Assembly: GCA_016783745.1 (NCBI GenBank)
Contig: JADHVZ010000018.1
Coordinates: forward strand, 1 to 38,554
Source: Candidatus Omnitrophota bacterium
Lineage (GTDB): Bacteria; Omnitrophota; Gorgyraeia; JAHIPI01
Reading direction: 5' to 3'
Length of the DNA: 38,554 bases
Shown here: in pieces, positions 3,915-38,554 of the stretch
Layout of the letters: each line of letters begins with the position of its first letter
How positions within the stretch are numbered: the first letter of the stretch is position 1
Notes under the pieces: generated by a model
Told to the model about the DNA's origin: nothing
What the model saw: only the letters and a program-made list of their open reading frames with translations
Databases searched by the model: none
Program-made: the position numbers and the translations under genes

Positions 3915-3941
3915 TGACAAATAACAAAAAGGAGGGATGAA

Positions 3942-4910
3942 GTGCCGTCCATCCAGGAAATTAAGAAAAACGAATTAAACACAGATCGGTTTATAGAAGA
4001 AAAAGTCCGGGAAATATCAGGTCTCGTAGGAGATGGTGTCGCGATTAACGCGCTTTCCGGTGGTGTTGACTCCTCAGCCGTTACGATTTTAGGGCACAGG
4101 GCTTTGGGCGACAGGCTCAAAGCATATTTCATAAATAACGGCATAATGAGAGAAGGTGAACCGCAGGCGATTGCCAGGATATTTGAGAAGTTGGGGGTAA
4201 AAATAGAGATCATTGATGCCCAGGATGAGTTTTTTAACGCTTTAAAGGAAATAACAGATCCGGAAGAAAAAAGAGAGGCCATAACCCAGACATTCTATAA
4301 GGATGTTTTCGGCAGGCTTGTGCGAAAAAGTGACGCGAAATATCTTCTGCAGGGCACCATTCTAACGGATGTAGATGAAACCATTGCCGGTATTAAAAGG
4401 CAGCATAACGTTTTTGAACAATTAGGCATTGATCCTGAAAAGGCTTTTGGATATAAGATCATTGAACCATTGATCCAGTTGCGCAAAGACGGTGTAAGAA
4501 AAGCCGCGGCGGCCCTGGGCTTGCCGGAATCTATATATAACCGCCCTCCTTTCCCGGGCCCGGCGCTGGCAGCGAGAGTGATCGGCGCGGTGACAAGGGA
4601 AAAGATAGGTATAGTAAGAAAAGCGACCACTGTTGTCGAGGAGGAATTGCGTAATACAGGCGCTTTTCAGTATATGGCGATCCTGCACGAGGACAAGGTT
4701 ACCGGCATGCGTGAGAACAAACGGGATTTTGGCCTGCAGATCGAAGTAAGATGCTGGGAGAGTGTTGATGCAAGGAAAGCAACGCCCACAAAATTGCCTT
4801 ATGAGACTCTAACTAAACTGGCAGATAGAATAGTTAATGAAGTTCCGGGTGTAGTAAGCGTAACATACAATATTGCGTCAAAACCACCATCAACTATGGA
4901 GGTTGTCTGA
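3942..4910 (+). CDS. guaA: GMP synthase, ATP-pyrophosphatase subunit only (no glutamine amidotransferase domain)
   Basis: The 322-aa product covers the ATP-pyrophosphatase and dimerisation domains of GMP synthase, which converts XMP to GMP. It has the PP-loop S-G-G-V-D-S-S (39-45), the R-P-P-F-P-G-P-A-L-A-A-R-V substrate loop (canonical R-H-P-F-P-G-P-G-L) and a C-terminus close to the family's K-P-P-A-T-I-E-W-E. Common bacterial GuaA is about 510-525 aa, with an N-terminal class I amidotransferase of about 190 aa. That domain is absent and the upstream DNA shows no relic of it. Archaea have such a split enzyme, so a separate GuaAa-like subunit elsewhere, or direct use of ammonia, is expected. 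The GTG start at 3942 follows an AAGGAGGG site. The last residues (S-T-M-E-V-V) diverge from the usual end. Confidence 0.88.
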   Translation: MPSIQEIKKNELNTDRFIEEKVREISGLVGDGVAINALSGGVDSSAVTILGHRALGDRLKAYFINNGIMREGEPQAIARIFEKLGVKIEIIDAQDEFFNALKEITDPEEKREAITQTFYKDVFGRLVRKSDAKYLLQGTILTDVDETIAGIKRQHNVFEQLGIDPEKAFGYKIIEPLIQLRKDGVRKAAAALGLPESIYNRPPFPGPALAARVIGAVTREKIGIVRKATTVVEEELRNTGAFQYMAILHEDKVTGMRENKRDFGLQIEVRCWESVDARKATPTKLPYETLTKLADRIVNEVPGVVSVTYNIASKPPSTMEVV

Positions 4911-4982
4911 GAACCCCAAAAAAAGTGATCTTAATAGTAACCGAAACTAAAAAGCCTGCTTACCGGCAGGCAAGGAGGCAAC

Positions 4983-5147
4983 ATGGCATTTGGTCAAGGT
5001 AGTGGATATGGCGGGGGTCCGCGAGAGATGCACAAGGCGACATGCGCGGACTGCAATAAAGAATGCGAAGTTCCTTTCAAGCCCAGCGGTGATCGTCCGG
5101 TATACTGCAAGGAATGCTTCTCAAAGCGCAAAGATAGCGGCCGTTAA
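4983..5147 (+). CDS. Small CxxC-x17-CxxC zinc-binding protein (54 aa, not in ORF track)
   Basis: ATG at 4983 follows an excellent ribosome binding site (AAGGAGG, 3-4 bases upstream) and gives a 54-aa protein ending at TAA 5145-5147. It has a Gly-rich N-terminus (G-Q-G-S-G-Y-G-G-G) and two cysteine pairs, C21-A-D-C24 and C42-K-E-C45, separated by exactly 17 residues. This is the CxxC-x17-CxxC zinc-ribbon signature of a small bacterial family of unknown function. The segment between is Phe/Pro-rich (V-P-F-K-P-S-G-D-R-P-V-Y), as in that family. It was below the ORF track's length limit; the listed 4990..5172 ORF is an out-of-frame shadow. A strong hairpin terminator follows, so the gene is probably transcribed alone or as the end of a guaA unit. 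Confidence 0.88.
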   Translation: MAFGQGSGYGGGPREMHKATCADCNKECEVPFKPSGDRPVYCKECFSKRKDSGR

Positions 5148-24073: not shown

Positions 24074-25045
24074 ATGGGAAAAGTGCTGATCATAAAACTT
24101 GGTTACTCAGAGACGCTTGACAAGGAGATCTCGCGGACCACTTCGTTGGGTGATGTCCTGAGGACAACATTTATATTAAATTTCTTTAAGCGTGACGATG
24201 TGAGCTGGTTTGTTGATGAAAAAGCCGCGCCGCTCTTGGAGAATAACCCTTATATAAGCCGCGTACTGATCCATAATCTTGAGACTGTGCTTCAGCTTCA
24301 GCATGAGCGCTTTGATACGGTCATCAATCTGGAAAAAGTCCCCGGTATATGCGCCCTTGCGGATTCGATCAGTGCATGGAGGAGGTTCGGGTTCAGATTT
24401 GATGAATATAGGGGAACTGCCCAGAGTTATGACGGCGCGGAAAAAGTTCTGGCGCTTTCTTCAAGCGACGATGAGAAGAGGGAGAACAAAAGATACTGGC
24501 AGGAGGCGCTTGCAGAGATGATAGGGAAAAACTGGAAAGGCGAAGGGTATGTATTGGGGCATAAGCCAAAAACAAAGCTTGTCCGCGATATCGGCTTTAA
24601 CTGGCAGACCGGCCAAAAATGGAGGAACAAGGCCTGGCCCAGGGAAAACTGGGAAGCGCTGGAGGGGCTCCTCAAAAATAATTATTCTATAGACTGGCAG
24701 CAGGGGCTGAACGATCTCCGCGAATATATGGACTGGATAAACACCTGCAAACTTATAGTGACCAATGACTCACTCGGTATGCACCTGGCGGTCGCGTTAA
24801 AAAGAAAGGTTATAGCCCTTTTTGGGCCCAGCTCTTCCAAGGAAGTCTATCTTTATGAAAAAGGAAAGATACTGCTCCCGAAGACAAGTTATAACTGCGT
24901 ACCGTGCCTTCAGAGAGAATGTTTTCAAAAAGAGCATTGCATGCATTTTATCAAGCCAAAGGATGTAGCAAAAGAGGCGGAAAAGATATTGAAGCAAGGT
25001 AAGCAAGCCGGGCACGCCAGATCCGCTATGGTAGGGGCAAAATAG
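24074..25045 (+). CDS. GT9 (heptosyltransferase-type) glycosyltransferase
   Basis: The 323-aa protein has the ADP-heptose:LPS heptosyltransferase fold markers: an N-terminal K-V-L-I-I-K-L-G-Y, S-L-G-D-V-L-R-T-T-F followed by a Rossmann domain, and a C-terminal donor-binding segment T-N-D-S-L-G-M-H-L-A-V-A-L with A-L-F-G-P-S-S. GT9 enzymes add heptose or related sugars to lipopolysaccharide-type acceptors on the cytoplasmic face. A late cysteine cluster (C-V-P-C-L-Q-R-E-C) is commonly present in heptosyltransferases of this type. It leads a unit with a radical SAM gene 5 bases downstream and has its own promoter. The acceptor and exact donor are unknown. Confidence 0.85.
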   Translation: MGKVLIIKLGYSETLDKEISRTTSLGDVLRTTFILNFFKRDDVSWFVDEKAAPLLENNPYISRVLIHNLETVLQLQHERFDTVINLEKVPGICALADSISAWRRFGFRFDEYRGTAQSYDGAEKVLALSSSDDEKRENKRYWQEALAEMIGKNWKGEGYVLGHKPKTKLVRDIGFNWQTGQKWRNKAWPRENWEALEGLLKNNYSIDWQQGLNDLREYMDWINTCKLIVTNDSLGMHLAVALKRKVIALFGPSSSKEVYLYEKGKILLPKTSYNCVPCLQRECFQKEHCMHFIKPKDVAKEAEKILKQGKQAGHARSAMVGAK

Positions 25046-25050
25046 CTTTA

Positions 25051-26115
25051 ATGGATGATTTCAGGATAGATTCACACAAGCTGATATATCATGTAGACAG
25101 GGTACGTGATTGGACTGTAGGCAAAAATATATACCCTCTTTACGCGGAAATATCTCCCTACGGCGGCTGTAATCACCGCTGCATTTTCTGCGCCCTTGAT
25201 TATCTGGAATATAAACCGCAGATGCTGGAGACGAATGTCCTGAAGCGTTTTCTAAAGGATATTACCCGGAAAGGCGTAAAGAGTATTATGTTCGCCGGAG
25301 AAGGGGAACCGCTCCTTCATAAGGATATGGCGGAGTTGATAAAATACGCGAAGGATCAGGGGTTAGATATAGCGATCACCACTAACGGCACACTATTGTC
25401 TAAGGCGCTTCTTGAAAGCATCCTCCCGCGCCTCAGCTGGCTTAGAATAAGCCTGAACGCGGGGACCGCGAAAAACTACGCCTCCATCCATAAAACACGC
25501 CCCGAAGATTTTAATAAGGTCATAGCGAATATAAAAGAAGCCGTGAAATTGAAAAAGAAGAAGCGGCTTTCATGCACCATAGGGGCCCAATTCCTGCTTT
25601 TAAACGAAAATTACAGGGACGCCGGGAAGCTGGCGGGCATATTAAAGGATAAAAAGGCGGATTATCTTATAATAAAACCCTATTCCCAGCACCCGCAAAG
25701 CCGTAATCGCCTCGGCGCGGGACTTCATTATGATAAGTTGCTGTATACGGAGAGAAGGCTTAGCGATTATAACAGCGGCAGTTTCCGGGTGGTCTTCAGG
25801 AAGCAGACAATGCTTAATCTCCGGGATGAGAAGCCATATGGTAAATGCCTGGGGCTGCCGTTCTGGACATATCTTGCTTCGTGGGGGGATCTATATGCGT
25901 GCAGCGCCTTTTTGGGCGATAAGCGCTTCTGCTACGGGAATATCTACAAAGAGTCTTTTGAAAAGGCATGGAATAGCCCGAAGAGAAAAAGTATAATGAA
26001 AATGATGGAGCGGGAGTGGGATATCAGTGATTGCAGGGAGGCCTGCAGGCTGGACGCGGTAAACAGGTATCTCTGGGAATTAAAGAATCCACCGGCACAT
26101 GTTAACTTTATATGA
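25051..26115 (+). CDS. Radical SAM protein with SPASM-like C-terminal region (type A)
   Basis: The 354-aa protein has the [4Fe-4S]-SAM motif C40-N-H-R-C44-I-F-C47, a G-E-G-E-P glycine motif and a C-terminal cysteine region (G-K-C, C-S-A-F, D-C-R-E-A-C) compatible with an auxiliary cluster. The N-terminus (K-L-I-Y-H-V-D-R-V-R-D-W) and C-terminus (W-E-L-K-N-P-P-A-H-V-N-F-I) are shared with the radical SAM protein at 28398, showing the two are paralogues of one subgroup. Radical SAM proteins of this layout turn up in surface-polysaccharide gene clusters, where their substrates are mostly unknown. A 5-base gap after the GT9 gene suggests co-translation. The following 250 bases hold a repeat tract and no gene. 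Confidence 0.88.
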   Translation: MDDFRIDSHKLIYHVDRVRDWTVGKNIYPLYAEISPYGGCNHRCIFCALDYLEYKPQMLETNVLKRFLKDITRKGVKSIMFAGEGEPLLHKDMAELIKYAKDQGLDIAITTNGTLLSKALLESILPRLSWLRISLNAGTAKNYASIHKTRPEDFNKVIANIKEAVKLKKKKRLSCTIGAQFLLLNENYRDAGKLAGILKDKKADYLIIKPYSQHPQSRNRLGAGLHYDKLLYTERRLSDYNSGSFRVVFRKQTMLNLRDEKPYGKCLGLPFWTYLASWGDLYACSAFLGDKRFCYGNIYKESFEKAWNSPKRKSIMKMMEREWDISDCREACRLDAVNRYLWELKNPPAHVNFI

Positions 26116-26124
26116 TGATAAGTA

Positions 26125-26252
26125 AACGTGGGTTAGCACGTCACCACGTCACCAGGTCACACGTCACCAGGTCACACGTCACCAGGTCACACGTCACCAG
26201 TATAAGAAAACCCCTGGTGACCTTGTGACGTGGTGACGTTGTAACCCATGTT
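26125..26252. repeat. Tandem 15-bp repeats inside a long imperfect palindrome
   Basis: Three exact units of ACGTCACCAGGTCAC (26146-26190) with partial units at both ends form a tandem array. The array's left flank (26125-26160) pairs with 26217-26252 at 32 of 36 positions, so the transcript could fold into a long hairpin. No spacers exist between units, so this is not a CRISPR. The gap 26116-26367 contains this tract and the neighbouring direct repeat and no recognisable gene. Confidence 0.75.
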
Positions 26253-26322
26253 TCTTTACACTGGCATTCTGGTGACGTTGTGTCGTGTAACCCATGTTTC
26301 TTTACACTGGCATTCTGGTGAC
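26241..26322. repeat. 36-bp perfect direct repeat (two copies)
   Basis: The block GTAACCCATGTTTCTTTACA.. of 36 bases occurs at 26241-26276 and again, without mismatch, at 26287-26322, separated by 10 bases. The first copy overlaps the right arm of the adjoining palindrome. It looks like a recent local duplication in a region of variable repeats, directly upstream of the transketolase genes. Confidence 0.75.
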
Positions 26323-26367
26323 CCAGGTTTTACGTAAACCGTAAACCGACTATGTATTATCACGATT

Positions 26368-27183
26368 ATGACAGACATTAAATTTCTGCGACAAAAGGCG
26401 AACGAGATACGGAGCGAAGTTTTAAGAGTAGCCGTTCCCCACGGGGCCGGACATATAGCGCCCTCACTATCATGCCTGGATATACTCGTAGCGCTTTATT
26501 ATGAGTGCATGGCGTATGATCCTAAAAAACCGGCCTGGGAGGACCGCGACAGGCTTGTTTTTTCAAAAGGCCACGGCTGTTACGCCCTTTACGCGATCCT
26601 GAATGATCTGGGAGTCCTGCCGAAAGAAAAATGGGAAGGTTTTTATACTGAAAAAAGCGATCTTGCCGGCTGTATAGAAAGGCATTCGGAGTACGGGCTT
26701 GAAGCGGGCTGCGGTTCTCTGGGGCACGGTCTTCCTATAGCTACGGGGATCGCTTTCGGAGCTAAAATACAGAATAAGGGTTACCATACATTTTGCATAG
26801 CCGGAGACGGTGAATTACAGGAAGGATCCACCTGGGAGGCTCTGCAGTTTGCCGTTAAGCACGAAGTGGGTAACCTCATTATCATAGTCGACCACAATCG
26901 GTTACAGGCTATGGATTTTATCGTGAATATCCTCGATAGAGAAAAGACCGATCTCATCAAAAGATTACGTGGATTCGGCCTGTCTCCGGTTACATGCCCG
27001 GGACACAATATGCCCAAACTTGTCGATACAATAAAAACGGCGAAGGCAGCGTTTTCTAAAGTACCCAAAGTCATTGTCGCGGACACGATAAAAGGCCGTG
27101 GCTTGAAATGCATGGAAAACGTACCGAAATTTCATTTCAGGATCCCCACAAAGGAAGAGCTTTCGACGGGGAAAGACATATGA
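26368..27183 (+). CDS. Transketolase N-terminal (TPP pyrophosphate-binding) subunit
   Basis: The 271-aa product is the first half of a split transketolase. It has G-A-G-H-I-A-P-S-L-S near the start, H-S-E-Y-G-L-E-A-G-C-G-S-L-G-H-G-L in the active-site region, and the thiamine-diphosphate motif G-D-G-E-L-Q-E-G-S followed by V-D-H-N (the G-D-G-x(n)-N signature). Split transketolases are common in archaea and in bacterial sugar-biosynthesis clusters, where they transfer two-carbon units to unusual acceptors. Here the ATGA overlap with the next gene gives coupled synthesis of the Pyr-domain partner. Its setting among a GT2, radical SAM genes and a GT9 argues for specialised sugar metabolism rather than the pentose phosphate pathway. 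No strong ribosome binding site is visible before the ATG. Confidence 0.88.
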   Translation: MTDIKFLRQKANEIRSEVLRVAVPHGAGHIAPSLSCLDILVALYYECMAYDPKKPAWEDRDRLVFSKGHGCYALYAILNDLGVLPKEKWEGFYTEKSDLAGCIERHSEYGLEAGCGSLGHGLPIATGIAFGAKIQNKGYHTFCIAGDGELQEGSTWEALQFAVKHEVGNLIIIVDHNRLQAMDFIVNILDREKTDLIKRLRGFGLSPVTCPGHNMPKLVDTIKTAKAAFSKVPKVIVADTIKGRGLKCMENVPKFHFRIPTKEELSTGKDI

Positions 27184-27671
27184 GCAATACTAATGACTAT
27201 AGAAAAGAGATCATAGACACGCTTTTGCCTTATTTTAAAAAGGATGAACGCCTGCGCCTTTTAGTCTGTGATATGGGCTTCGGCGTTACGGATAAGTTAA
27301 AAGAAGTTATGCCGGAAAGTATGATGAACTGCGGCATCATGGAGCAGGGGACTGTGGGCGTAGCCGCGGGGATGGCCCTGAGCGGCCTCAGGCCGGTGGT
27401 CTATTCAATAGTAAATTTTCTGGTGTATAGAGCATTAGAGCAAATACGCAATGACCTGGTTTTGCAGAAGCTGAACGTCAAGCTTATCGGCACCGGATGT
27501 GACGACTATTTCAGTTTTTTAGGGCCTTCCCACTGTTGCGGTAAAGACGATATAGCTTTGATGAAATTGATCGATGTAAAAGTCTATGACCCTTATACGG
27601 ATAAAAGGCCGTTCAGCAAGTTAGTGGATGACTGGATAAATAGCGACGGCCCAGCCTATATCCGCGTATAG
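27180..27671 (+). CDS. Transketolase Pyr-domain subunit (C-terminal domain missing)
   Basis: The true start is ATG 27180, overlapping the stop of the first subunit by 4 bases (the track start at 27108 is inside that gene). It gives 163 aa. The product is the pyrimidine-binding domain, with the catalytic glutamate in G-I-M-E-Q-G and following A-G-M-A-L-S-G-L-R-P. Normal transketolase C-terminal subunits are about 300 aa and continue with a third domain, but this one stops after P-A-Y-I-R-V, the end of the Pyr domain. The gene ends cleanly and the next begins 15 bases later, with no relic of the missing domain, so it seems a genuine short form. The catalytic TPP site needs only the PP and Pyr domains. 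Confidence 0.85.
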   Translation: MSNTNDYRKEIIDTLLPYFKKDERLRLLVCDMGFGVTDKLKEVMPESMMNCGIMEQGTVGVAAGMALSGLRPVVYSIVNFLVYRALEQIRNDLVLQKLNVKLIGTGCDDYFSFLGPSHCCGKDDIALMKLIDVKVYDPYTDKRPFSKLVDDWINSDGPAYIRV

Positions 27672-27685
27672 ACAGGAATCACTCT

Positions 27686-28438
27686 ATGCTACTGACAATC
27701 ATAATGCCCGCCCTCAACGAGGAGAATAACATCAATGCCGCTATTGATGATACTTTGTCCTCCTTCAGAGAATATAGTATTGACGGAGAAGTGCTGGTTA
27801 TAAACGACGGCAGTACGGATTCCACGCCTGATCTGATCAAACGTAAGGTAGAGGAGAATCCCGGGAAAGTAAGAACGCTTGACCATCCAAAGCCGCAGGG
27901 TATAGGTTCTTCATTCTGGGACGGTGCGGATAACGCTAAGGGCGATATAGTCTGCCTGCTGCCGGGCGATAATGAGAATATACCTGGTGAGATCTTACGC
28001 TACGTGGGGCTTATGGAAGACGTGGATCTGGTCATACCGTTTGTATTGAACAGAGAAGTGCGTTCGACTTTCCGAAGGTTCCTTTCAGCGAATTATGTCC
28101 GGTTTATAAATTGCAGCTTCAGGACCTCTCTTACTTACACGACGGGGACAGTCATCTACAGAAAATCTCTCCTTAAAGAATTAAAAACCAGGAGAATGGG
28201 CTTCTTTTTTCAGACAGATATACTGATCAGGCTGGTAAAGCGCGGATACCTCTTAGCCGAAGTCCCTTATAAATTACGGGAAAGGGGAGGCGGCAAGTCT
28301 AAAGCTGTCAGATTGCGCTCTCTCGGAGATATCGTAAGAGGCTATTTTAAGCTTTTAGCCGATATCTATTTCAAAAAAGAAAGCATAAAAAAGGCATATG
28401 CCCAGGACTCAGTTACGGCAAAGCGAAAAAGTGGTTAA
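27686..28438 (+). CDS. GT2 family glycosyltransferase (DPM1/ArnC-like)
   Basis: The 250-aa GT-A protein begins I-I-M-P-A-L-N-E-E-N-N and has the nucleotide-binding N-D-G-S-T-D-S-T, then L-P-G-D-N-E-N at the DXD position and a G-x-F-F-Q-T-D-I-L-I-R-L acceptor segment. It is closest in layout to dolichyl/polyprenyl-phosphate sugar transferases, but has no C-terminal membrane helices, so it is probably a soluble or peripheral enzyme. The product could be a lipid-linked sugar for cell-surface assembly. Its end overlaps the following radical SAM gene by 41 bases, which suggests coupling with that gene. Confidence 0.87.
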   Translation: MLLTIIMPALNEENNINAAIDDTLSSFREYSIDGEVLVINDGSTDSTPDLIKRKVEENPGKVRTLDHPKPQGIGSSFWDGADNAKGDIVCLLPGDNENIPGEILRYVGLMEDVDLVIPFVLNREVRSTFRRFLSANYVRFINCSFRTSLTYTTGTVIYRKSLLKELKTRRMGFFFQTDILIRLVKRGYLLAEVPYKLRERGGGKSKAVRLRSLGDIVRGYFKLLADIYFKKESIKKAYAQDSVTAKRKSG

Positions 28439-29558
28439 GCATATAGAAGAGGTGAAACACCTCGTGCTTGACGGCCACAAGATGCTTTGGCACAAAGACA
28501 GGGTAGAGGCGTGGCTTGACGGCAAGAGGATAGCGCCGGTAACTATAGATTGTTCTCTGACCAGAAGGTGCAGTTATAGATGTGTATACTGTTACGGCCA
28601 GCTTCAGGCTAACGATGAGAAGAGGATGACCAGAGACGTGATCTTCCGTTTTCTCGATGATGCCGCGGAGATCGGTGTCAAGGGCGTAAGTTTTGTCAGT
28701 GACGGGGAAAGCACCTGTTCACCGCATATTTATGACGCTATAGTAAAGGGCAAAGCAAACGGCCTGGATATGGCGCTCGGTACCAACGGTTATCTGCTCA
28801 AGAACGAACGCCTGGAAGAGATCCTGCCCTGCCTTACTTATTTAAGATTCAACATTTCCGCCGCCCAGACCCGATCCTATGCCGAGATCATGGGCTGCAG
28901 CGAAAAGTGCTTCCATAAAGTGATCAATACAATAAAAAAGAGCGTTGAGATAAAACGGAAAAAGAAACTTTCCGTTACCATAGGCATGCAAATGGTCCTG
29001 ATGCCGCGATTCGCGGATCAGATCATACCGTTCGCTAATCTGGGTAAATCGCTCGGAGTCGACTACGCCATAATCAAGCACTGTAGCGATGACGAGAAAG
29101 GGAGCCTGGGTGTCGACTATTCGCAGTATTTTGAACTGGTGGATCTATTGAAGCAGGCAGAAGCGCTATCGACTAAAGACTATCTGGTCAAGGCGAAATG
29201 GTCCAAGATCTTAAGTGACGGAAAAAGAAAATACACCAAATGCTACGGCCCTGCCTTCATTATGCAGTTTTCAGGTTCGGGCCTGGTCGCGCCGTGCGGC
29301 ATGCTATTTAACAGCAGGTTCAAGAAAAACTTTCATATAGGCAATATAGCGGATACATCGTTCAAAAATATATGGAAGAGCAAAAGATATCGGGATGTCC
29401 TTGATCATATACATTCGGATAAATTCAATCCACAGACAGACTGTGGGACTCTTTGTCTGCAGCATAAGGTCAATGAGTTTCTCTGGGACTTGAAAAATGG
29501 GAAGGCAGACCTTAAGAAGCCGCCGGGCAAACCGCCGCAGCATATAAATTTCGTTTAA
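28398..29558 (+). CDS. Radical SAM protein with SPASM-like C-terminal region (type A paralogue)
   Basis: The 386-aa protein has the cluster motif C58-S-Y-R-C62-V-Y-C65, a D-G-E-S glycine-like motif, and late cysteines (T-K-C-Y-G-P-A, P-C-G-M, D-C-G-T-L-C) suitable for an auxiliary Fe-S cluster. Its N-terminal K-M-L-W-H-K-D-R-V-E-A-W and C-terminal F-L-W-D-L-K-N ... P-P-Q-H-I-N-F-V ends mirror the protein at 25051, so both probably act on related substrates. The ATG 28398 lies within the GT2 gene, preceded by AAAAAAGG. A later start is possible, but the shared N-terminal motif begins around residue 28, so it cannot be far inside. A 147-base gap without clear signals follows. Confidence 0.88.
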   Translation: MPRTQLRQSEKVVKHIEEVKHLVLDGHKMLWHKDRVEAWLDGKRIAPVTIDCSLTRRCSYRCVYCYGQLQANDEKRMTRDVIFRFLDDAAEIGVKGVSFVSDGESTCSPHIYDAIVKGKANGLDMALGTNGYLLKNERLEEILPCLTYLRFNISAAQTRSYAEIMGCSEKCFHKVINTIKKSVEIKRKKKLSVTIGMQMVLMPRFADQIIPFANLGKSLGVDYAIIKHCSDDEKGSLGVDYSQYFELVDLLKQAEALSTKDYLVKAKWSKILSDGKRKYTKCYGPAFIMQFSGSGLVAPCGMLFNSRFKKNFHIGNIADTSFKNIWKSKRYRDVLDHIHSDKFNPQTDCGTLCLQHKVNEFLWDLKNGKADLKKPPGKPPQHINFV

Positions 29559-29705
29559 ACTTATTTTAAAAGACTTGATGAATAGAAGAACACTCCTAAA
29601 AGTCCTTCCGGGGCTGATATTTATTTTCATTCCTCATAATTTTGATGGCGCTTTTTGCGGGATATTACATATTTTTGCCCCGGAAACCGGAGATGCGTGA
29701 GTTTT

Positions 29706-30461
29706 ATGAAAAGTCAGGATAAAGTCTCTGAAGCCGCGTTCTTTGACGGGATTGCGGAAGCGGGAGAATACGATGCCCTGACTCAGCGGGCATATGACAG
29801 GCTGGTACTCTTTTTTGAAAGGTTTATCAAACCTGAACCTGGAGAAAAGCTGATAGATCTGGGGTGCGGAACAGGCGCTTTTACAAAAGAACTTAAAAAA
29901 TTCAGTCTGAATATAACAGCAGTCGATCTCTCTCAGAACGCGGTCAGTTCCGCAAAAAAGGATAATCCGGGATATTCCGCGATTTGCTCTGATATAGAAA
30001 AGCTGAGTTTTGCTGATGAAAGCTTTGATGTCGTGGTCTTCAGCGCGGTTTTACATCACTTTAAAGATTTTTCGAGATGCGCCTCTGAAGCTTACAGGGT
30101 GCTTAAGAAGGGGGGAAGGTTTTACGCCTTTGATCCTAATATGAGAAACCCTTTCATGAGGATCTACAGAAGCGCGCGTTCCGGCAAGGGTCGGAGAGCT
30201 CTACGGCCCGTAGGGCCGGAGGCCTCGCCATACACCGTCAATGAAAGGCTTTTATCAAAAGAGGAGCTGGAAAAGGCTTTTAAGGAAGCCGGTTTTTCCG
30301 CGTCTGTTCTGGCCGTATCCGGAATAGAGTTAAGGCAGGCAAATAGAGGAATATTTGACAGATTCCTCACTTTTTATAATCTGCTTGAAAGGGGCATGGC
30401 ATCATTGCCTCTCGCGCGATACTACGGATCGCATTTGATAACCTACGGCGTAAAGACGTAG
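29706..30461 (+). CDS. Class I SAM-dependent methyltransferase
   Basis: The product (251 aa from ATG 29706) has motif I L-I-D-L-G-C-G-T-G-A-F-T, an acidic residue after strand 2 (A-V-D-L-S), C-S-D-I-E and the post-II segment F-D-V-V-V-F-S-A-V-L-H-H-F. This is a UbiE/type-11-like small-molecule methyltransferase. The target is unknown; lipid, sugar or radical-SAM product methylation would all fit the neighbourhood. GTG 29697 is an alternative start with GGAG four bases upstream; the track's 29655 start is too far up. It is followed after 18 bases by the dual radical SAM gene and begins the very compact block that runs to the end of the window. Confidence 0.88.
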   Translation: MKSQDKVSEAAFFDGIAEAGEYDALTQRAYDRLVLFFERFIKPEPGEKLIDLGCGTGAFTKELKKFSLNITAVDLSQNAVSSAKKDNPGYSAICSDIEKLSFADESFDVVVFSAVLHHFKDFSRCASEAYRVLKKGGRFYAFDPNMRNPFMRIYRSARSGKGRRALRPVGPEASPYTVNERLLSKEELEKAFKEAGFSASVLAVSGIELRQANRGIFDRFLTFYNLLERGMASLPLARYYGSHLITYGVKT

Positions 30462-30479: not shown

Positions 30480-32969
30480 ATGGGTATGATATATTGTCTG
30501 AGCAAATGGTTGAAGCGTTTTCGCATATTAGTCCGCTTCATGCTATATAACCTGAGTATTGATAAGAGGCCTGTCTTTTCGGTGCTGACTGTTACCAGCC
30601 ACTGCAATTTCCGCTGTAAATACTGTTTCGGGGATTATCATAAGAGCCAGGAGAAGGACTTGTCCACGGAAAAGCTGCTGGAAACAGTCGATGAACTCGC
30701 GGACTTAGGCATTATTTACATAAATGTTCACGGCGGGGAAGCCCTTCTCCATAAAGACATGGGTAAGATCCTCACCAGAGCCCAAAAGCGGCATATGTTC
30801 GTCAATCTCATCACTAACGGGACCTTCCTTAAAAAATTCTGGGATGATGTTAAAGTAGTCGATACATTCTGCATCAGTCTGGACGGCCGTGAAGAAAATA
30901 ATGATCTCAATCGAGGGCCAGGTACATTCAAGATCGCCTCAGAAGCCATCGATTTTATTCTATCCAGGGGCCATACGCCGAGGATAGGCATGACGATAAG
31001 CAAACATACGATTGATGATATAGAGTGGCTGGCTGAGTGGGCAAAGGAAAGGCATATCTATATCCAGCCGTTCCTGCTTTTTGACCAGGAGCACCTTCCC
31101 AGAGAACTCTGGCTTACAAGGGAAGAAAATCACATGGCCCTTAGAAAGTTGATAAAACTCAAGAAAAAAGGCTATCCGATCTTCTACAGCCTGAAGACAT
31201 TGAATTACGCTCTGGACTGGCCTTTTGATAAGCCGATCTTAAGGGCCGGGGACATGAAGGACGTAAAAGTACCGAAGGATTTCAAGTTCATACCGTGCCT
31301 TTACAAGATATTGAACATAATTGTTGAGGCTAACGGCACTATCAGAAGCTGTAACGCCAAAATAAGAGGGGAATATCATACTTCCATACTCAACAAGTCC
31401 TTGAAAGACGCGAAGCGGAAGCTGCTTCAGATGGACGATTGCCTGTATTGTTATCATCTGCCTATAGTGGAGTTCAGCAACCTTATGTCCGTAAACCTTG
31501 AACCCGTGTTCGGCCAGTTCATAAATCAGGCGAGAGAGGATCTAAAAAGGCTCAAAAATCAATTATTCGCGAAGTGTGTTGCCTCCGCCGGCAAACCGGC
31601 AGTATTATTTATAAACCCACCCGGCCCCGAAAAGCTCTACCGGGGTATGATATGTACTTATATTTCAAAAGCCAATTATATCTGGCAGCCGTTTGACTTT
31701 GTGATCTTGAGCGCTCATATTCCGGAGAAGTATGACGTAAAACTCATCGACTGTAATATAGATACTTTATCGGTGCAGGGTTGCATAGAGAAGATAAAAA
31801 AGGCGGATCCTGCCGCAGTGATCGTTTCCATATCTTCTATCGTGCTTGAGAAAGATATGGAGTTCCTGCGTCAGTTAAGAAGTGCTTTTCCCGGTCTTAA
31901 GATATCGGTCTTAGGCGACGTAATGCTGGAGGACTCTTTTTGCCGTAAAGTGCGGGAATGCGGCGTAGACCTTATACTTGACCCTATGGATATCGATCTG
32001 TGTCAATATATTGAGACGGGCCGGGCTTCGTCACCGAATATAGTGATGTTCCGGGATATGAGGCCTGAGATCCACAGGAAAAAAGAAGACAAGGCAAAGA
32101 AGGTCTTGATAGGTATCCCCAGACATAAAGCATTCATAAACAGTAAGTACCGCGTCCCGTTCATGAGGCATTCTTTATACACTACAGTCTCGACTCAGTT
32201 TAGCTGTCCTTATAAGTGCCATTACTGTTCCTGCGCCAAGCTGCCTGTCACATATAGGGGGTATGATGAAGTCTTAAAAGAACTGGATTTTGTAAAAGAG
32301 CTTGGTATCCGAGAAATATATTTCAGCGATCCAAGCTTTGGCTATCCAAAAAATAATGTAAAACATCTTTTGCATTCTATGATCGATAAAAAATACTCCT
32401 TCAGCTGGTCTTGTTATTTTAATCCGGCCATGGGTACGGATGAGATGCTGAAGCTTATGAAAACGGCAGGATGCCACACAGTTATCATCGGTGTCGAGGA
32501 CGAAGATTTTGATATGCTTGGCTCGCGATTTGAAAGAAGGCTCAGCAAGGAGAAACTGTTCGAATTCACACAAAATTGTAAAAAACTGGGCATCAGGATC
32601 TGCGGAGATTTTATAATCGGCCTCAATGACAAGGAAGAGGCGTTTGAAAGAATAGTCGATCTGTCCATGAGGCTTGATCTGGATTACGCCTCTTTCAATA
32701 TATATACGCCTCTTATGGGCTCTATCGTGAGAGACGATATGATAAGAGACGGAAGCATATCTCCCGACGCTACAGGGTTTGATACTACCGGTGCCTCGAG
32801 AATGCCGGATAAGAAGTTAATAGAGCTTAGAGATAAGGCGGTAAGAAGCTTTTATCTCAGGCCGTCTTATATAGCGCGAAGGATATTGAGCTTAAAAAGG
32901 CCCGAAGAATTTTTTATTCAGTTCGCTGAGATGGTAGAGCTTTTTAAGCGATCATTCGCGAAAAGGTAG
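30480..32969 (+). CDS. Dual radical SAM fusion: SPASM-type radical SAM + B12-binding-type radical SAM
   Basis: The 829-aa protein contains two complete radical SAM modules. Module 1 (about 30-360) has C42-N-F-R-C46-K-Y-C49, H-G-G-E-A and late cysteines (F-I-P-C, S-C-N-A, C-L-Y-C). It resembles the protein at 34118 throughout. Module 2 (about 375-829) starts with a cobalamin-binding-type Rossmann region (F-I-N-P-P-G-P, V-K-L-I-D-C-N) and then C576-P-Y-K-C580-H-Y-C583, D-P-S-F-G, V-I-I-G-V-E and G-D-F-I-I-G. The usual D-x-H-x-x-G cobalamin motif is not visible, so B12 binding is uncertain. The frame is continuous across the junction and sequence quality looks normal. A two-step radical reaction on one substrate is a plausible reading. 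No homologue is known to me with this order. Confidence 0.85.
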   Translation: MGMIYCLSKWLKRFRILVRFMLYNLSIDKRPVFSVLTVTSHCNFRCKYCFGDYHKSQEKDLSTEKLLETVDELADLGIIYINVHGGEALLHKDMGKILTRAQKRHMFVNLITNGTFLKKFWDDVKVVDTFCISLDGREENNDLNRGPGTFKIASEAIDFILSRGHTPRIGMTISKHTIDDIEWLAEWAKERHIYIQPFLLFDQEHLPRELWLTREENHMALRKLIKLKKKGYPIFYSLKTLNYALDWPFDKPILRAGDMKDVKVPKDFKFIPCLYKILNIIVEANGTIRSCNAKIRGEYHTSILNKSLKDAKRKLLQMDDCLYCYHLPIVEFSNLMSVNLEPVFGQFINQAREDLKRLKNQLFAKCVASAGKPAVLFINPPGPEKLYRGMICTYISKANYIWQPFDFVILSAHIPEKYDVKLIDCNIDTLSVQGCIEKIKKADPAAVIVSISSIVLEKDMEFLRQLRSAFPGLKISVLGDVMLEDSFCRKVRECGVDLILDPMDIDLCQYIETGRASSPNIVMFRDMRPEIHRKKEDKAKKVLIGIPRHKAFINSKYRVPFMRHSLYTTVSTQFSCPYKCHYCSCAKLPVTYRGYDEVLKELDFVKELGIREIYFSDPSFGYPKNNVKHLLHSMIDKKYSFSWSCYFNPAMGTDEMLKLMKTAGCHTVIIGVEDEDFDMLGSRFERRLSKEKLFEFTQNCKKLGIRICGDFIIGLNDKEEAFERIVDLSMRLDLDYASFNIYTPLMGSIVRDDMIRDGSISPDATGFDTTGASRMPDKKLIELRDKAVRSFYLRPSYIARRILSLKRPEEFFIQFAEMVELFKRSFAKR

Positions 32970-32973: not shown

Positions 32974-34125
32974 ATGTTGAATAAACCCGTCGTATTTATA
33001 CAAAATGCCGGCTACGATTCCATGAAACAGGCCGTTGATAACATATTTGCCGCCTTTCCGCTTGATGTAAAAGATAAACTTGTTTGGGTCAAACCTAACA
33101 TGTTGGGAGATTATGTCCCTGAAAGGCACGCCACCACACATCCCGCGGTCGTATCGGCTATAGTGAAAAAGCTTGAATCTTTAGGCGCGAATGTGGTTGT
33201 TGGAGATAATTCCGGCATACAGATCATGGTCTCTGATATGGTAGTAGCCTCCAAGACAGGTTTGCTAGGGGCATCACAGGACAGATTTAAAAATATAAGT
33301 GATGAAGTGGTCTTTAAAAAAATAGGCCCGAATTCGCGGGAAGATGTAGCGGTCTCAAAAATAATAGAAGATTGCGATATATTTATATCCGTTCCTAAGA
33401 TGAAGACTCATCTACAGACTTATATCACGGGAGCGGTAAAGAATTCATATGGTTTTGTGGTGGGAAATCAAAAGCCCAGATTGCACATGAAGTACCCGGG
33501 TTTCAGGGAATTTGCCGGGATAGTGGCCGATATCTATAATATCAGAAAACCTGACCTTGTTATCGTAGACGCGGTCTACGCCATGGAGGGTGACGGCCCG
33601 AATTCCCCGAAGGTCAGGCGGCTCGATAAGGTATTCGCCTCTACGGATGGTGTGGCCCTGGATCACTATATGGCAAAGATCATGGGTATGGATGTAAGTA
33701 AAATAGCGCTTTTAAAATATTGCGTAGAAAATGACATGGGTTCGCCGGTATATGAGCTCAGGGGCGGAGATGAGGAGGCTATCAATGATTTCAAGCTACC
33801 TAGGACTTATTATAATATAAACGCGAGCAATTCTCTCGTTGATACATTGATATACCGTTTTATAATGGCGAAGAAGATCGCTATAAACAAAAAAAGCTGT
33901 ACGTTGTGCAAAAAATGCTACAACGTGTGCCCTGCCGTAGCGATAAGCTGGAAGGACGGCCCCATCATCGACAATGAAAGATGCATTCTTTGCTTCTGCT
34001 GCAAAGAGATGTGCGATCAGGATGCTATTTCTTTTGCTAAGAGATACGTTTACGTCCAGAAGATGCTCGGCCTCCTGAATACGATGAAGGATAAGATCTC
34101 CATGAAAAGGAGAAATAATGGCTGA
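32974..34125 (+). CDS. DUF362 protein with C-terminal 2[4Fe-4S] ferredoxin domain
   Basis: The 383-aa protein has an N-terminal DUF362 domain (about 5-260; V-W-V-K-P-N-M-L-G-D, T-H-P-A-V-V, V-P-K-M-K-T-H, V-V-D-A-V-Y-A-M-E-G-D-G-P) and two ferredoxin clusters near the C-terminus: C309-x2-C312-x2-C315-x3-C319-P and C337-x2-C340-x2-C343-x3-C347. The second lacks the Pro after the last Cys. DUF362 proteins are of unknown biochemical role and often carry ferredoxin domains. Beside four radical SAM genes it may supply electrons for cluster reduction. It starts 4 bases after the dual radical SAM gene and overlaps the next radical SAM gene by 8 bases, a strong sign of joint expression. Confidence 0.88.
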   Translation: MLNKPVVFIQNAGYDSMKQAVDNIFAAFPLDVKDKLVWVKPNMLGDYVPERHATTHPAVVSAIVKKLESLGANVVVGDNSGIQIMVSDMVVASKTGLLGASQDRFKNISDEVVFKKIGPNSREDVAVSKIIEDCDIFISVPKMKTHLQTYITGAVKNSYGFVVGNQKPRLHMKYPGFREFAGIVADIYNIRKPDLVIVDAVYAMEGDGPNSPKVRRLDKVFASTDGVALDHYMAKIMGMDVSKIALLKYCVENDMGSPVYELRGGDEEAINDFKLPRTYYNINASNSLVDTLIYRFIMAKKIAINKKSCTLCKKCYNVCPAVAISWKDGPIIDNERCILCFCCKEMCDQDAISFAKRYVYVQKMLGLLNTMKDKISMKRRNNG

Positions 34126-35188
34126 TATAGCCCGTAGATTCAAGTACCGCTACTTTCCTACCCTCAAAGCTGCTGCCAAAGTCACTCAGGGTTATGTCAC
34201 AAAAAAACGTATGCCTTTATATACCAGTTTATTCATTACTCAACGGTGCAATTTAAAATGTGTTTACTGTTTTCCAAAATCACAGGAGAGGAGAGAATCT
34301 GATATTCCGCTGGATAAGTTATTTAAAATAGTCGACGAGCTTTATGAAGCGGGATGCCGTTTTATCACAATACTGGGCGGAGAGCCGATGCTTCGGAGCG
34401 ATTTCGGTGAAATCGTAGATTATATAACGAAAAAAGGAATACTCGCCGAGGTGTCGACCAACGGCTATTTCATAAAAAAATGGCCCGAGGCGATCAGGAA
34501 GCTTTTTCTTGTATGCAACAGCATCGACGGAGATGAGGAGACGCACGATGCCAATCGGGGTAAAGGGTCGTTTAGAAAAGTAATGGAAAGTATAGAATTC
34601 TGCCGAGAACATAATGTGCCCGTTCAGCTCCGGTCGGTGATCACCTCTAATAACGTTGATAAACTCCAGTTTATGCTGGATCTGGCAAAGAAGGTTGGGA
34701 CGACATTGAGTTTAGGGGAGCAATGTGTGGATGCCGACCGAAATCCTTATGAAGCCAGCCCTGAGGAATACCGCGAGTTTTGGAAGTTTATAGAAAAAAA
34801 GAAGAAAGAAGGGTACCTCATTGATAAATCACATACATGCCTCAAGAATATAATAAGATACCCTTTAGATGCCCCGCTCAATAAGATTTTCATGGACGGT
34901 GAGGAATTGCCGCCTTCCATGCCGCAGGATATGCCGAAATGCACTATACGTAACGGATTTTGTCTTTTAGATAACAACGGTATGCTTTATCCCTGTATCC
35001 CACTTTTTGGAAAGTGGGGAAAGAATGTCTTTGAACTGGGAGTCAAGGGCGCATGGGAAGGCCTGATGGAGCATAAATGCAGGTTTTGCAGGTCAAGCGT
35101 TTATGATATGAAGAGTTTTTTCTTTGGCACCGACCGCTATTCTATGATCGATATGGCCCGTTATATGTTGAATAAGAATTGTCAGTGA
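34118..35188 (+). CDS. Radical SAM protein with SPASM-like C-terminal region (type B)
   Basis: The 356-aa protein has C44-N-L-K-C48-V-Y-C51, L-G-G-E-P-M-L, S-T-N-G-Y and S-I-D-G-D-E-E-T-H, then late cysteines (K-C-T-I-R-N-G-F-C, Y-P-C, H-K-C-R-F-C) for one or two auxiliary clusters. It aligns with module 1 of the 829-aa fusion along its length (L-G-G-E/H-G-G-E, N-R-G-K-G-S-F/N-R-G-P-G-T-F, a Pro-Leu/Phe-Asp-x-Pro segment), so it is a stand-alone paralogue. SPASM/twitch proteins modify peptides, sugars or cofactors; no precursor peptide gene is seen nearby. AAAAGGAGAAATA precedes its ATG, inside the DUF362 gene. Confidence 0.88.
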   Translation: MADIARRFKYRYFPTLKAAAKVTQGYVTKKRMPLYTSLFITQRCNLKCVYCFPKSQERRESDIPLDKLFKIVDELYEAGCRFITILGGEPMLRSDFGEIVDYITKKGILAEVSTNGYFIKKWPEAIRKLFLVCNSIDGDEETHDANRGKGSFRKVMESIEFCREHNVPVQLRSVITSNNVDKLQFMLDLAKKVGTTLSLGEQCVDADRNPYEASPEEYREFWKFIEKKKKEGYLIDKSHTCLKNIIRYPLDAPLNKIFMDGEELPPSMPQDMPKCTIRNGFCLLDNNGMLYPCIPLFGKWGKNVFELGVKGAWEGLMEHKCRFCRSSVYDMKSFFFGTDRYSMIDMARYMLNKNCQ

Positions 35189-35201: not shown

Positions 35202-36230
35202 ATGAAAGATTATTTATCGGATTTTAAGGCGGATATAGCTCAGATTACCCCTAATGGACTATGCCCGTTACTGTACCATACTTTAATACCTTATATAGTG
35301 ACGCTCTTGGACGGGGGCTGGTTCGGCTGGATAGAAAAAAAGAAAGATACAAACTATCGTAAAAAGATAGATCCGAAAGACTTTAATAAATCAAGCGTGG
35401 ATAGATTATATCCAAATGAAGTATTGGTCCAGTGCCCGAATATCAATGCTTCTATAATCGTAGGAGTAGGCCCGTATATAAATTCCCGCGGAGAACGGGA
35501 AGTCCTCTTAAGGATTTTGAATAAGAAGGGTGAGTGCCCCAACAATCTTGAAATAGGCAATGAAATTATCCTGAATAAAAATGATTTTAAGATCTCTCCC
35601 ACCGAATACAATGCCGGATTTCCCTCGCTTTTGCTTAGTCGATTGAGCGGCAAGGAATCACTATCCGATCATTTCTGCAATAATCCTCTGAAAAATCGAT
35701 CTGTCAGTGTTGAGGATATAGAGGCGAGGTGCCGCTATCATAAGAAGAAATCGAGCTATGCGGATTCATTGCTGCCCGGCGATTTTTGTATGGATATCTT
35801 CCATCTGATCTATCCCCAGGTGTTGGCGTTATTATACAGTAGCGATAAAAAAATGAATAATTTTACGTATTCGTGCCCTATATCCGGAGAAAGGGTGACG
35901 ATAAAAGCGGAAAAAGTACCTCGTTTTAATACGATATTAGGGGGATTCAGGAAAATTTTAATAAAAATATTTAAAGCCGTATTCTTTCCCTATGATTTTA
36001 TAGACGACAACATAGTCTTTACCGTAGAAAAAAGCAGAGATGTCAAAGATTGTGCGCTAGACGAGAAAAAGAAATATTATTTCAATATGTTTGACGAGCG
36101 ATATCCCTGCCCTTCTTCTCTGCATGCATTGTATCCGTATATGTTGCTTAGAGCTCATAATATGGAATTGCCGTGGTCGGATGTTGTACATTGTCCCGGC
36201 TGCAAAGGTATAACTTACAGCATAAAATGA
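35202..36230 (+). CDS. Uncharacterised protein built of three CP/H/P cysteine modules (TIGR04076-like)
   Basis: I do not recognise the 342-aa protein as a whole, but it contains one motif three times. C21-P-L-L-Y-H-T-L-I-P, C196-M-D-I-F-H-L-I-Y-P and C303-P-S-S-L-H-A-L-Y-P each fit C-x3-x-H-x-[LI]-x-P. Each is followed some 25-60 residues later by a Cys-Pro strand: Q-C78-P-N, S-C225-P-I and H-C331-P-G-C334, with a beta-like V/I-T-x-I ending. The last unit looks like a complete TIGR04076-type domain, as recalled from family consensus. Cys and His in each unit could bind metal. There are no membrane segments or signal peptide. It follows the type B radical SAM gene by 13 bases (GAGGAG site) and overlaps the next gene by 4, so it is an integral member of the operon. 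Confidence 0.75.
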   Translation: MKDYLSDFKADIAQITPNGLCPLLYHTLIPYIVTLLDGGWFGWIEKKKDTNYRKKIDPKDFNKSSVDRLYPNEVLVQCPNINASIIVGVGPYINSRGEREVLLRILNKKGECPNNLEIGNEIILNKNDFKISPTEYNAGFPSLLLSRLSGKESLSDHFCNNPLKNRSVSVEDIEARCRYHKKKSSYADSLLPGDFCMDIFHLIYPQVLALLYSSDKKMNNFTYSCPISGERVTIKAEKVPRFNTILGGFRKILIKIFKAVFFPYDFIDDNIVFTVEKSRDVKDCALDEKKKYYFNMFDERYPCPSSLHALYPYMLLRAHNMELPWSDVVHCPGCKGITYSIK

Positions 36231-37264
36231 AAAAGCAAATGACAGGCAAGCCGGTTTTAAGACTCTCAGGCGGTGAGAATCCTTATCAGGCACCGGGGGA
36301 CCTATTCGCTTCCGATAGTAAAGACCGCCTTTCACTGCGGCGGCTGCAATCGCAGAATGCCGGCGTTCCCTGTTTCACCAATTTAGCGGATGCGGACTCT
36401 ATTTTACATACGCTTTGCCTGGCAGCGGAAGCTTTCCGCCTGCGATATAAAAAGGCCCCTTTTATATCTATTGCGGCCAAGCATGGCAATCCTTGCGGAA
36501 TGGCAGCTGAGTGGGGCTCGACTGAGAAAACGGTTCTTTCGTCGCTTTTGGGAAACCCACTGGCTGTCTGGGGAGGCGAATTTATCGCCAACTTTAAAAT
36601 TGATGAAAGAATAGCCCACTTATTATTAAAAAGTGTGAGCCGAAAAAAGAGATTCGGGAATGCCTATTGGATGCTTGATGTAATCATTGCGCCGGATTTT
36701 GACGAAAAGGCCGTTGATGTCCTTAGTAAGCGCTCTTCGAGGAAGTTATATAAGAATCCACAGCTTTATAACCCCCGATTACCGGCGTCATCCTGGCGAT
36801 ATCGCCAGGTTAGAGGCGGTTTCCTACGCCAACCGTCTCCCGATTATATTTTGGATTTTACTAAGGTGGAATGTGATGGCGCACGATTGAGCGGTCAGAT
36901 AGCCGATAGTATAATCCTCGCCTGGAGCGTTGCGTATAGTTCATTTCACGGAGGCAATGAGATAGCGATAGTGAAAGAAAATCAACTTTTAGGAGTGGGT
37001 GGCGGGCCTTCTACCCTTGATGCGGCTAAAACTGCATTATTAAGAGCACAAGCAAGCGGACATGATACTACTAATTCAGTATTTGCGGCAGACGCCTTTT
37101 TTCCGTTTACCGATGCTCCCGCCGTATTAAAGGAAGCCGGCTGCTGCCTGGGTGTTGTCCCCTCCGGAGGCAAAAATGAGTTATCAGTGAGGCATTTTTT
37201 TAAAGAAAACAACATCAATATGATATTTATTCCGCCTCAATACAGAGGATTCTGCCGTCATTAG
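36227..37264 (+). CDS. Stand-alone AICAR-formyltransferase-like protein (PurH C-terminal domain homologue)
   Basis: The start at ATG 36227 (ATGA overlap) gives 345 aa; the track's 36173 start is inside the previous gene. Motifs of the PurH AICAR transformylase domain appear in order: R-L-S-G-G-E-N-P-Y-Q, A-K85-H86-G-N-P-C-G, G-G-E-F-I-A-N, V-I-I-A-P-D-F, A-A-D-A-F-F-P-F and a final Y-R-G-F-C-R-H. The N-terminal IMP cyclohydrolase domain (about 200 aa) is absent. The catalytic Lys-His pair is kept, but S-N-A-I-V, G-x-G-x-Q and Q-P-G-G-S are altered to G-N-E-I-A, G-V-G-G-G and V-P-S-G-G. It may transfer a formyl group from 10-formyl-tetrahydrofolate to a non-purine amine made by this cluster, or be a divergent split PurH. 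Both are inference. Confidence 0.8.
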   Translation: MKKQMTGKPVLRLSGGENPYQAPGDLFASDSKDRLSLRRLQSQNAGVPCFTNLADADSILHTLCLAAEAFRLRYKKAPFISIAAKHGNPCGMAAEWGSTEKTVLSSLLGNPLAVWGGEFIANFKIDERIAHLLLKSVSRKKRFGNAYWMLDVIIAPDFDEKAVDVLSKRSSRKLYKNPQLYNPRLPASSWRYRQVRGGFLRQPSPDYILDFTKVECDGARLSGQIADSIILAWSVAYSSFHGGNEIAIVKENQLLGVGGGPSTLDAAKTALLRAQASGHDTTNSVFAADAFFPFTDAPAVLKEAGCCLGVVPSGGKNELSVRHFFKENNINMIFIPPQYRGFCRH

Positions 37265-37266: not shown

Positions 37267-38554
37267 ATGAAGATAAGAAAGATAGTATTATGTAATTTGC
37301 CGTTGGATGGCGAACTTCAGTACTATATATCGCCGCCATATTTTCTGAAGGATGCCGTCAGTTATCCGCCCTTAGGCCTGCTTTATATAGCCGCGCAGAT
37401 TTACGACGCCGAAGTTAAGCTTATCGATACATCCTGCAATGTGAAGCTGACCATAGATGATACGGCCCGGAGGATCATAGATGAGAAGCCGGATATTCTC
37501 GGAATTACCGGTTACAGCATAAGGGCCTACGCGTTAAAGACGATATGCGAAAAGGTCAGCAGGGAGCTCGGGGACGCTGCGCGCATAGTAGTCGGAGGCA
37601 ACCATACGGAACTTTATCCTATTGAGACCCTTCGATATCCGGGTGTCAATTATGTTCTGAAAGGCGAGGCCGATTATACATTCCCGCAACTCGTAAAGGC
37701 TATAGATGACGGGGAGAAGGAAGGGGATCTTTCCGCGATTAACGGCCTCTACTTTTGTGGCGCCTCCGGTCAGATTCAGGCAAACGACTACAAGGAGGCG
37801 TCTTTTAATCTTGATGGAATCCCCTTTCCGAGGAGGGACCTGGTCGATTTCAGCCTTTACTCCACACTCGCGCAGGATACGACGACCATGACATCACTCG
37901 TCTCAAGCAGGGGCTGTTCCTTCAAGTGCATCTTCTGTGATGTGCCGATAAAGAAGATCCGCTTCCGCTCTCCGGAAAATGTAGTCGAGGAGATCGAAGA
38001 GATGATGAAGATGGGAGTGAACGAATTCAGCTTCTTTGATGACTGTTTCAATGTCGATCCGAATCGGGTAGTCAGGATATGCAGGCTTATCATCGAGCGA
38101 AAACTGAATATTAAATGGTGCTGCCGCCTGCGGCCTGCCCCTTTTACCGAGGAGATGGCCGAGGCGATGGCCGCATCGGGATGCAACCGGCTTCATTTCG
38201 GCGTCGAATCGACCAACAATGATATTCTTCGGTACATGCGAAAAGGGATCACCTACGAACAGTCGAAGAGGACACTCGATCTCTGCAAAAAGTATAAGCT
38301 GAAGCCGCTCATATACCTCATGTTCGGTTTTCCGGGGGAGGATATGAAGATGCTGAAGGAGGGCGAAAAGCTGATTTTGAATGAGTTGAGGCCCGACTAT
38401 ATCTTTCCGAGTATACTATTCCCGCTGGGCGGAACGGTCTTTTACCGCCAACTCCTTACGAGCGGAAAGCTGAAATATGACTTTTGGGCAGATTATATCA
38501 ATAATCCTACGCGTGATTATAAAGTGCCAAAATTCCGTACGCCGGAAGAAGATG
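37267..38554 (+). CDS. B12-binding-domain-type radical SAM protein (cut by window end, not in ORF track)
   Basis: An open frame runs from ATG 37267 to the last base with no stop (429 codons); the track missed it because it is unclosed. The N-terminal 180 residues form a cobalamin-binding-type Rossmann domain (Y-P-P-L-G-L-L-Y-I-A, V-K-L-I-D, I-L-G-I-T-G-Y, V-V-G-G-N-H, L-K-G-E-A-D). Next comes the radical SAM motif C217-S-F-K-C221-I-F-C224, F-F-D-D-C-F, H-F-G-V-E-S and L-M-F-G-F-P-G-E. This is the BchE/MiaB-like class of radical SAM enzymes, many acting as methyltransferases or cyclases. It starts 2 bases after the formyltransferase-like gene and extends the operon beyond the window. Cobalamin use cannot be confirmed from motifs alone. 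Confidence 0.87.
   Translation, partial: MKIRKIVLCNLPLDGELQYYISPPYFLKDAVSYPPLGLLYIAAQIYDAEVKLIDTSCNVKLTIDDTARRIIDEKPDILGITGYSIRAYALKTICEKVSRELGDAARIVVGGNHTELYPIETLRYPGVNYVLKGEADYTFPQLVKAIDDGEKEGDLSAINGLYFCGASGQIQANDYKEASFNLDGIPFPRRDLVDFSLYSTLAQDTTTMTSLVSSRGCSFKCIFCDVPIKKIRFRSPENVVEEIEEMMKMGVNEFSFFDDCFNVDPNRVVRICRLIIERKLNIKWCCRLRPAPFTEEMAEAMAASGCNRLHFGVESTNNDILRYMRKGITYEQSKRTLDLCKKYKLKPLIYLMFGFPGEDMKMLKEGEKLILNELRPDYIFPSILFPLGGTVFYRQLLTSGKLKYDFWADYINNPTRDYKVPKFRTPEED

Follow-up and report, generated by a model that had tools for sequence, protein, structure and literature searches.

The window analyzed here is a stretch of 38,554 nucleotides from an Omnitrophota contig, and it contains a cluster of radical SAM genes. 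Within this cluster, the frame at 30480-32969 on the + strand runs uninterrupted from an ATG at 30480 to a stop codon that ends at 32969. It encodes a protein of 829 amino acids with two radical SAM modules, referred to below as the N and C modules. The genes and features of the locus are as follows.

24074-29558, +: upstream cassette of GT9, radical SAM/SPASM, split (two-subunit) TPP enzyme, GT2 and radical SAM/SPASM genes (Pfam)
29655-30461, +: SAM-dependent methyltransferase, directly upstream of the fusion (Pfam Methyltransf_11, 2.6e-28)
30480-32969, +: double radical SAM fusion protein, complete open reading frame including the stop codon (Pfam Radical_SAM twice)
30480-31586, +: N module, residues 1-369, twitch-like radical SAM, with a long helix (residues 340-369) at its end (stand-alone homologues; AlphaFold)
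30603-30626, +: CX3CX2C motif of the N module, C42/C46/C49 (invariant in a 22-row family alignment)
31296-31451, +: predicted auxiliary cluster cysteines C273, C291, C321 and C324, twitch-like (invariant in the 22-row alignment)
31575-31601, +: junction or linker, residues ~366-374, without an in-frame start or usable SD-like motif
31599-32018, +: B12-type Rossmann domain of the C module, residues ~374-513 (AlphaFold secondary structure, pLDDT mostly >90)
32178-32966, +: radical SAM barrel and C-terminal helices of the C module, residues ~567-829 (Pfam, AlphaFold and Foldseek, with AprD4 6fd2 as the best match)
32205-32228, +: CX3CX2C motif of the C module, C576/C580/C583 (invariant in a 46-row family alignment)
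32974-34125, +: DUF362 and ferredoxin-domain protein, directly downstream of the fusion with a 4 nt gap (Pfam DUF362, 7e-46; Fer4, 2.7e-06)
34118-35188, +: stand-alone distant paralogue of the N module (28% identity, E=1.2e-34; in a different clade of the tree)
37267-38553, +: stand-alone B12-binding radical SAM gene, a distant relative of the C module (Pfam B12-binding, 3.8e-18; outside the C-module clade), running off the contig end

Genomic setting

A close match to the second (last) radical SAM/SPASM gene of the upstream cassette was found in 35 of the 384 genomes of the class, with different neighbours downstream. In most of the 20 such regions that were read, the cassette recurs around this gene. 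The fusion itself belongs to the variable part of the cluster, beside the conserved core at 24074-29558. In three genomes (G013, G478 and G556) an N-type gene adjoins the core cassette, and in G701 a C-type gene lies within it. The neighbours of other homologues include GT-C membrane transferases, short-chain dehydrogenases, polysaccharide deacetylases, an amine oxidase and DegT aminotransferases. The glycosyltransferases, the split TPP enzyme and the other radical SAM genes near the fusion point to a surface-glycan or glycolipid pathway. The DUF362-ferredoxin protein encoded directly downstream is a possible electron carrier and could supply electrons.

Other features were noted in the window. 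Tandem repeats, consisting of four copies of GTCACACGTCACCAG and two copies of a 46-bp unit, are located at 26137-26322, between the radical SAM/SPASM and split TPP genes. Inside the radical SAM cluster, the gene at 36173-37264 encodes a stand-alone protein that resembles only the AICAR transformylase part of PurH, and its product probably transfers a formyl group to another amine. Near the contig end, a TnpB/OrfB-type IS605 protein is encoded at 1220-2383 on the - strand.

Architecture of the two modules

Pfam Radical_SAM (PF04055) matches the fusion protein in two separate stretches, with a whole-protein E value of 9.9e-36, and each half contains a CX3CX2C motif in a radical SAM barrel according to Pfam and the structural models. 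An earlier sequence-only reading of this DNA had proposed one continuous 829-residue frame with two radical SAM modules and had placed their motifs at C42/C46/C49 and C576/C580/C583. The frame, both modules, each of them complete, and both positions were confirmed by our analysis. The two halves were predicted separately by AlphaFold, with mean pLDDT values of 91.6 for the N half and 93.4 for the C half; a mixed alignment had put N homologues onto the C half, with identities of 11-16%.

The N module had been described as SPASM-type. The fusion protein has no match to Pfam SPASM (PF13186), and the neighbouring genes at 25051 and 28398 do match it. Past the barrel, the N module contains four conserved cysteines for one auxiliary cluster, the arrangement of twitch-type enzymes. 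On the basis of these invariant cysteines, the site is predicted to be a single-cluster, twitch-like one. G86-E87 of the GGE motif are also invariant in the 22 rows of the N-family alignment. The top Foldseek matches of the N half are SkfB, BlsE, MoaA and SuiB, with AbmM and SpeY lower down. BlsE, AbmM and SpeY are sugar-acting enzymes of antibiotic pathways. The proposed paralogy between the N module and the gene at 34118 is real but distant.

The C half contains a Rossmann-type domain ahead of the barrel in its AlphaFold model, with Foldseek matches to AprD4, TsrM and OxsB. Pfam B12-binding (PF02310) has no match in the C half even at E<=0.1; among 46 homologues of this half, 22 do have a match. 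The label "B12-binding-type" given to this module needs correcting: the fold is present in a confident model, the Pfam signature is not. The nearest solved relative of the C half by Foldseek is AprD4 (6fd2), which aligns over the full length with a TM score of 0.72 and an E value of 2.4e-23, and a sequence-profile match to AprD4 also covers the whole length (E=1.1e-47). Further structural matches are TsrM, TokK, OxsB and MgmA. The best NCBIfam models over the C half are HpnJ, PhpK and AprD4, all scoring far under their cut-offs. HpnJ (TIGR03471) is the best of these and matches over nearly the full length, with 109.2 bits against a cut-off of 577.6; the PhpK P-methyltransferase family scores 102 bits, and the AprD4 family (NF033070) scores 81.3 bits against a curated cut-off of 500. 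By analogy with AprD4 and HpnJ, the C module may act on a sugar or cyclitol and remove or rearrange one of its carbons or ring substituents. Neither BtuR- nor CobS-type genes were detected in the genome, which is 93% complete, and this result is not decisive on cobalamin use by the C half. The proposed likeness to the class of the gene at 37267 was also recovered, with 24% identity and an E value of 2.6e-18, and is more distant than that between the N module and the gene at 34118.

Several relatives of the C module were observed in other contexts. Members of its family occur on contigs titled Woesearchaeota and Micrarchaeota (L085, L097 and L105), indicating a wide spread of an undescribed family. 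In two Planctomycetes loci (L119:2762-5365 and L128:2714-5368), C-module homologues with 30-31% identity are fused behind ~410-430 other residues. These leading residues have no Pfam match in either protein, and those of L119 also have no PDB match. At L048:6121-8301, a methyltransferase resembling that encoded at 29655 is fused to a radical SAM enzyme of the B12 type, in a protein of 727 aa.

The module boundary is located at residue ~366-374 (31575-31601), in agreement with the junction region of 31,550-31,620 that had been proposed. Stand-alone N homologues end at residue ~358-365, and C homologues start at 370-375, give or take a few residues. The fusion frame contains no ATG, GTG or TTG from residue 343 to residue 390, and the only SD-like motif at the junction, at 31536, is not followed by a start codon at a suitable spacing. 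Internal re-initiation of the C half is thus ruled out. Third-position GC is 0.57 in the N half and 0.49 in the C half, both inside the range of the neighbouring genes (0.48-0.57). The DNA sequence of the junction occurs once in the genome. A terminator-like hairpin (GCCGG-CAAA-CCGGC) is located at 31587-31600, exactly on the junction, and is possibly a remnant of a lost intergenic region; such hairpins are not in excess over chance, with 6 matches found and 3.9 expected. Taken together, these data support the view that radical SAM enzymes of two different classes are truly fused here.

Origin and distribution of the fusion

In Nitrospirae bacterium NC_groundwater_1506 (L070/L166), both modules are present as adjacent separate genes. 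This pair was found by a contig scan with the C-module alignment; a whole-protein scan gave nothing. It encodes proteins of 366 aa (62% identity to the N half) and 461 aa (51% identity to the C half). Their order, strand and reading frame are the same as in the fusion; a single TAA and a gap of 24 nt separate the two frames. In maximum-likelihood trees, the N half and the NC_groundwater_1506 gene are grouped as a pair with support of 100/100, away from the gene at 34118. The C half forms a three-row clade with the Nitrospirae gene and an Omnitrophica UBA6253 gene (93/83), far from the gene at 37267. It had been suggested that the fusion combines two activities available in the same operon. Assembly of the fusion from the local genes at 34118 and 37267 is ruled out by the trees of both halves, which group with the Nitrospirae pair instead. 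Since the tree neighbours of both halves form this adjacent pair, the fusion most likely descends from a pre-existing gene pair through in-frame loss of the stop, spacer and start. The occurrence of two separate genes in relatives had been named as an observation that would count against the fusion. Such a pair does exist; it explains the origin of the fusion and does not refute it, because the stop, spacer and start are all gone in this genome. The Nitrospirae pair also provides two unfused enzymes for comparison with the fusion.

No orthologous fusion was found in ~700 genomes, mostly Omnitrophota. The search sets, drawn from outside its genus, were three overlapping sets of Omnitrophota genomes (147, 384 of the class and 384 of the phylum) and 250 genomes related to the Nitrospirae one. 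Apart from the Nitrospirae pair, the nearest homologues of the N and C halves are usually in different places, and therefore the two activities are separable. The two gene types are adjacent for 10 of 16 N-type genes, in a biased sample whose loci had been selected for such genes.

Two more double radical SAM frames came from genomes of the same class. In genome G112, L177:711-3179 (+) is a frame of 823 aa with a B12-binding radical SAM module followed by a SPASM-like radical SAM module, the reverse of the order at 30480-32969; its end is possibly truncated. In genome G126, L179:3294-5999 (+) is a frame of 902 aa with two radical SAM/SPASM-type cores, whose CX3CX2C motifs are located at residues 32 and 670. 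Neither frame is orthologous to the fusion. The frame that follows the one in G112 (3145-4998) begins with a SPASM segment, and a frameshift or a longer fusion is possible there. Candidate long frames in G139 and G047 proved to be genes of ordinary length.

Proposed function and relation to known systems

With moderate confidence, we propose that the protein is a bifunctional radical SAM enzyme that arose from a fused gene pair and carries out two consecutive radical steps on one surface-glycan intermediate. In this proposal, an existing two-gene unit would have encoded a twitch-like enzyme followed immediately by an AprD4/HpnJ-like enzyme, and the stop codon of the first gene, the start codon of the second and the short spacer between them would have been lost in frame, leaving a single chain. 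Judging from sequence and models, each half is predicted to retain a separate [4Fe-4S] site for SAM cleavage, with an additional four-cysteine auxiliary cluster site in the N half. The helix and about five residues that join the modules would keep both halves close together. The first type of step could be, for example, a dehydrogenation or carbon rearrangement, followed by a dehydration/deoxygenation or C-modification. Both steps may act on one intermediate of a surface-glycan pathway, either sugar-like or a glycosyl-lipid, and the neighbouring DUF362-ferredoxin protein is a possible electron donor. Sequential reactions on a shared substrate had already been suggested for this protein. Such consecutive action is plausible to likely and gains support from the adjacency of the same two genes in Nitrospirae, a gene pair of the ancestral type. 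The structural neighbours, including the sugar-acting AprD4 for the C half and BlsE, AbmM and SpeY for the N half, count toward a sugar pathway.

The single chain may also have no catalytic meaning, if the fusion was fixed by chance and each enzyme works on its own, with a different substrate or in a non-consecutive step. The occurrence of the fusion in only one of the genomes searched is consistent with this explanation, as are the presence of close relatives of each half singly in many clusters and the ease of small in-frame deletions between co-directional neighbours in the same frame. However, the halves are also immediate neighbours in another phylum, and in the biased sample described above genes of both types are often adjacent. 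We consider chance fixation rather unlikely. Non-catalytic function of one half, as a scaffold, substrate-binding or electron-relay module, is improbable: a class of pseudo-radical-SAM domains is known (NCBIfam TIGR04347, for example), but neither half has lost its CX3CX2C motif, and the GGE motif, the auxiliary cysteines and every other position invariant in the two families are likewise intact. An assembly or base-calling artefact, with two genes in the living cell, is conceivable in a metagenome-type assembly in 54 contigs, given that relatives carry two genes. Against this, the adjacency, order and frame are seen independently in another phylum, and the uniqueness of the junction sequence makes a repeat-mediated join unlikely. 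Because the correct frame offers a second gene no start codon, an artefact would also require at least two errors within a few codons. The Nitrospirae gene pair and the junction uniqueness thus make an assembly chimera unlikely, and we regard an artefact of any kind as very improbable.

A different question is the type of chemistry in the C half, which might be a cobalamin-dependent radical SAM methyltransferase and not an AprD4-like dehydratase/deoxygenase or an HpnJ-like ring-modifying enzyme. The B12-type Rossmann domain in the AlphaFold model, the structural matches to TsrM, TokK, OxsB and MgmA, and the score of the PhpK family are all consistent with a methyltransferase. On the other hand, the best profile and fold matches are to AprD4 over the full length, and Pfam B12-binding does not match the C half of the fusion. 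The lack of detectable BtuR and CobS genes points in the same direction, though methylcobalamin enzymes do not need BtuR. A methyltransferase is therefore possible and the less probable assignment.

The bifunctional enzyme proposed here has implications for the surrounding genes. Fused enzymes are functional partners, and in this case the partners belong to two families, each with stand-alone members in many of the class's genomes and, for the C family, also in several other phyla, including archaea. The location of the fusion inside a recognisable surface-glycan cluster provides a testable pathway order for unassigned Omnitrophota radical SAM genes. Searches of the open-licence literature returned no paper that describes this fusion or examines these Omnitrophota clusters.

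The individual modules can be compared with characterized enzymes. AprD4, a radical SAM 1,2-diol dehydratase that acts on paromamine, resembles the C half in its full-length fold and profile match, but the identity is only ~19% and a second radical SAM module is absent from AprD4. Its partner is a separate reductase, AprD3 (PMC5461906). HpnJ makes bacteriohopanetetrol cyclitol ether from the glucosamine form; its substrate is a glycosyl-lipid on which a glycosyltransferase and a deacetylase have acted before (PMC12583986). Genes similar to the glycosyltransferase and deacetylase of the HpnJ pathway adjoin some C-type genes. However, the C half scores far under the HpnJ cut-off, and HpnJ is not a fusion. 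The Nitrospirae pair is alike in its modules, order, strand and frame and differs in consisting of two polypeptides. The two further double frames share with the fusion the presence of two radical SAM cores in a single frame; that in G112 joins a B12 type and a SPASM-like type, and that in G126 contains two SPASM-type modules.

The closest parallel in organization is the FO synthase FbiC, which carries two radical SAM modules in one chain, the halves being CofG and CofH in archaea, and uses two deoxyadenosyl radicals in one pathway step (PMC11917521). The fusion likewise carries, in one chain, two radical SAM cores for which other organisms have separate genes. FbiC and the two further double frames in the same class show that double radical SAM proteins are a known and recurrent kind; the particular pair of modules in this order is new here. 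CofG and CofH are absent from the best 25 of 86 NCBIfam matches to the fusion protein. In contrast to FbiC, the fusion probably belongs to another pathway, and its modules match other families and represent two structurally different classes, twitch-like and B12-fold. We tentatively suggest, as a possibility of lower probability than the bifunctional enzyme itself, that these two mechanistically different modules pass a radical-modified glycan intermediate between their active sites, so that the protein would be a surface-glycan counterpart of FbiC with a chemistry not yet described.
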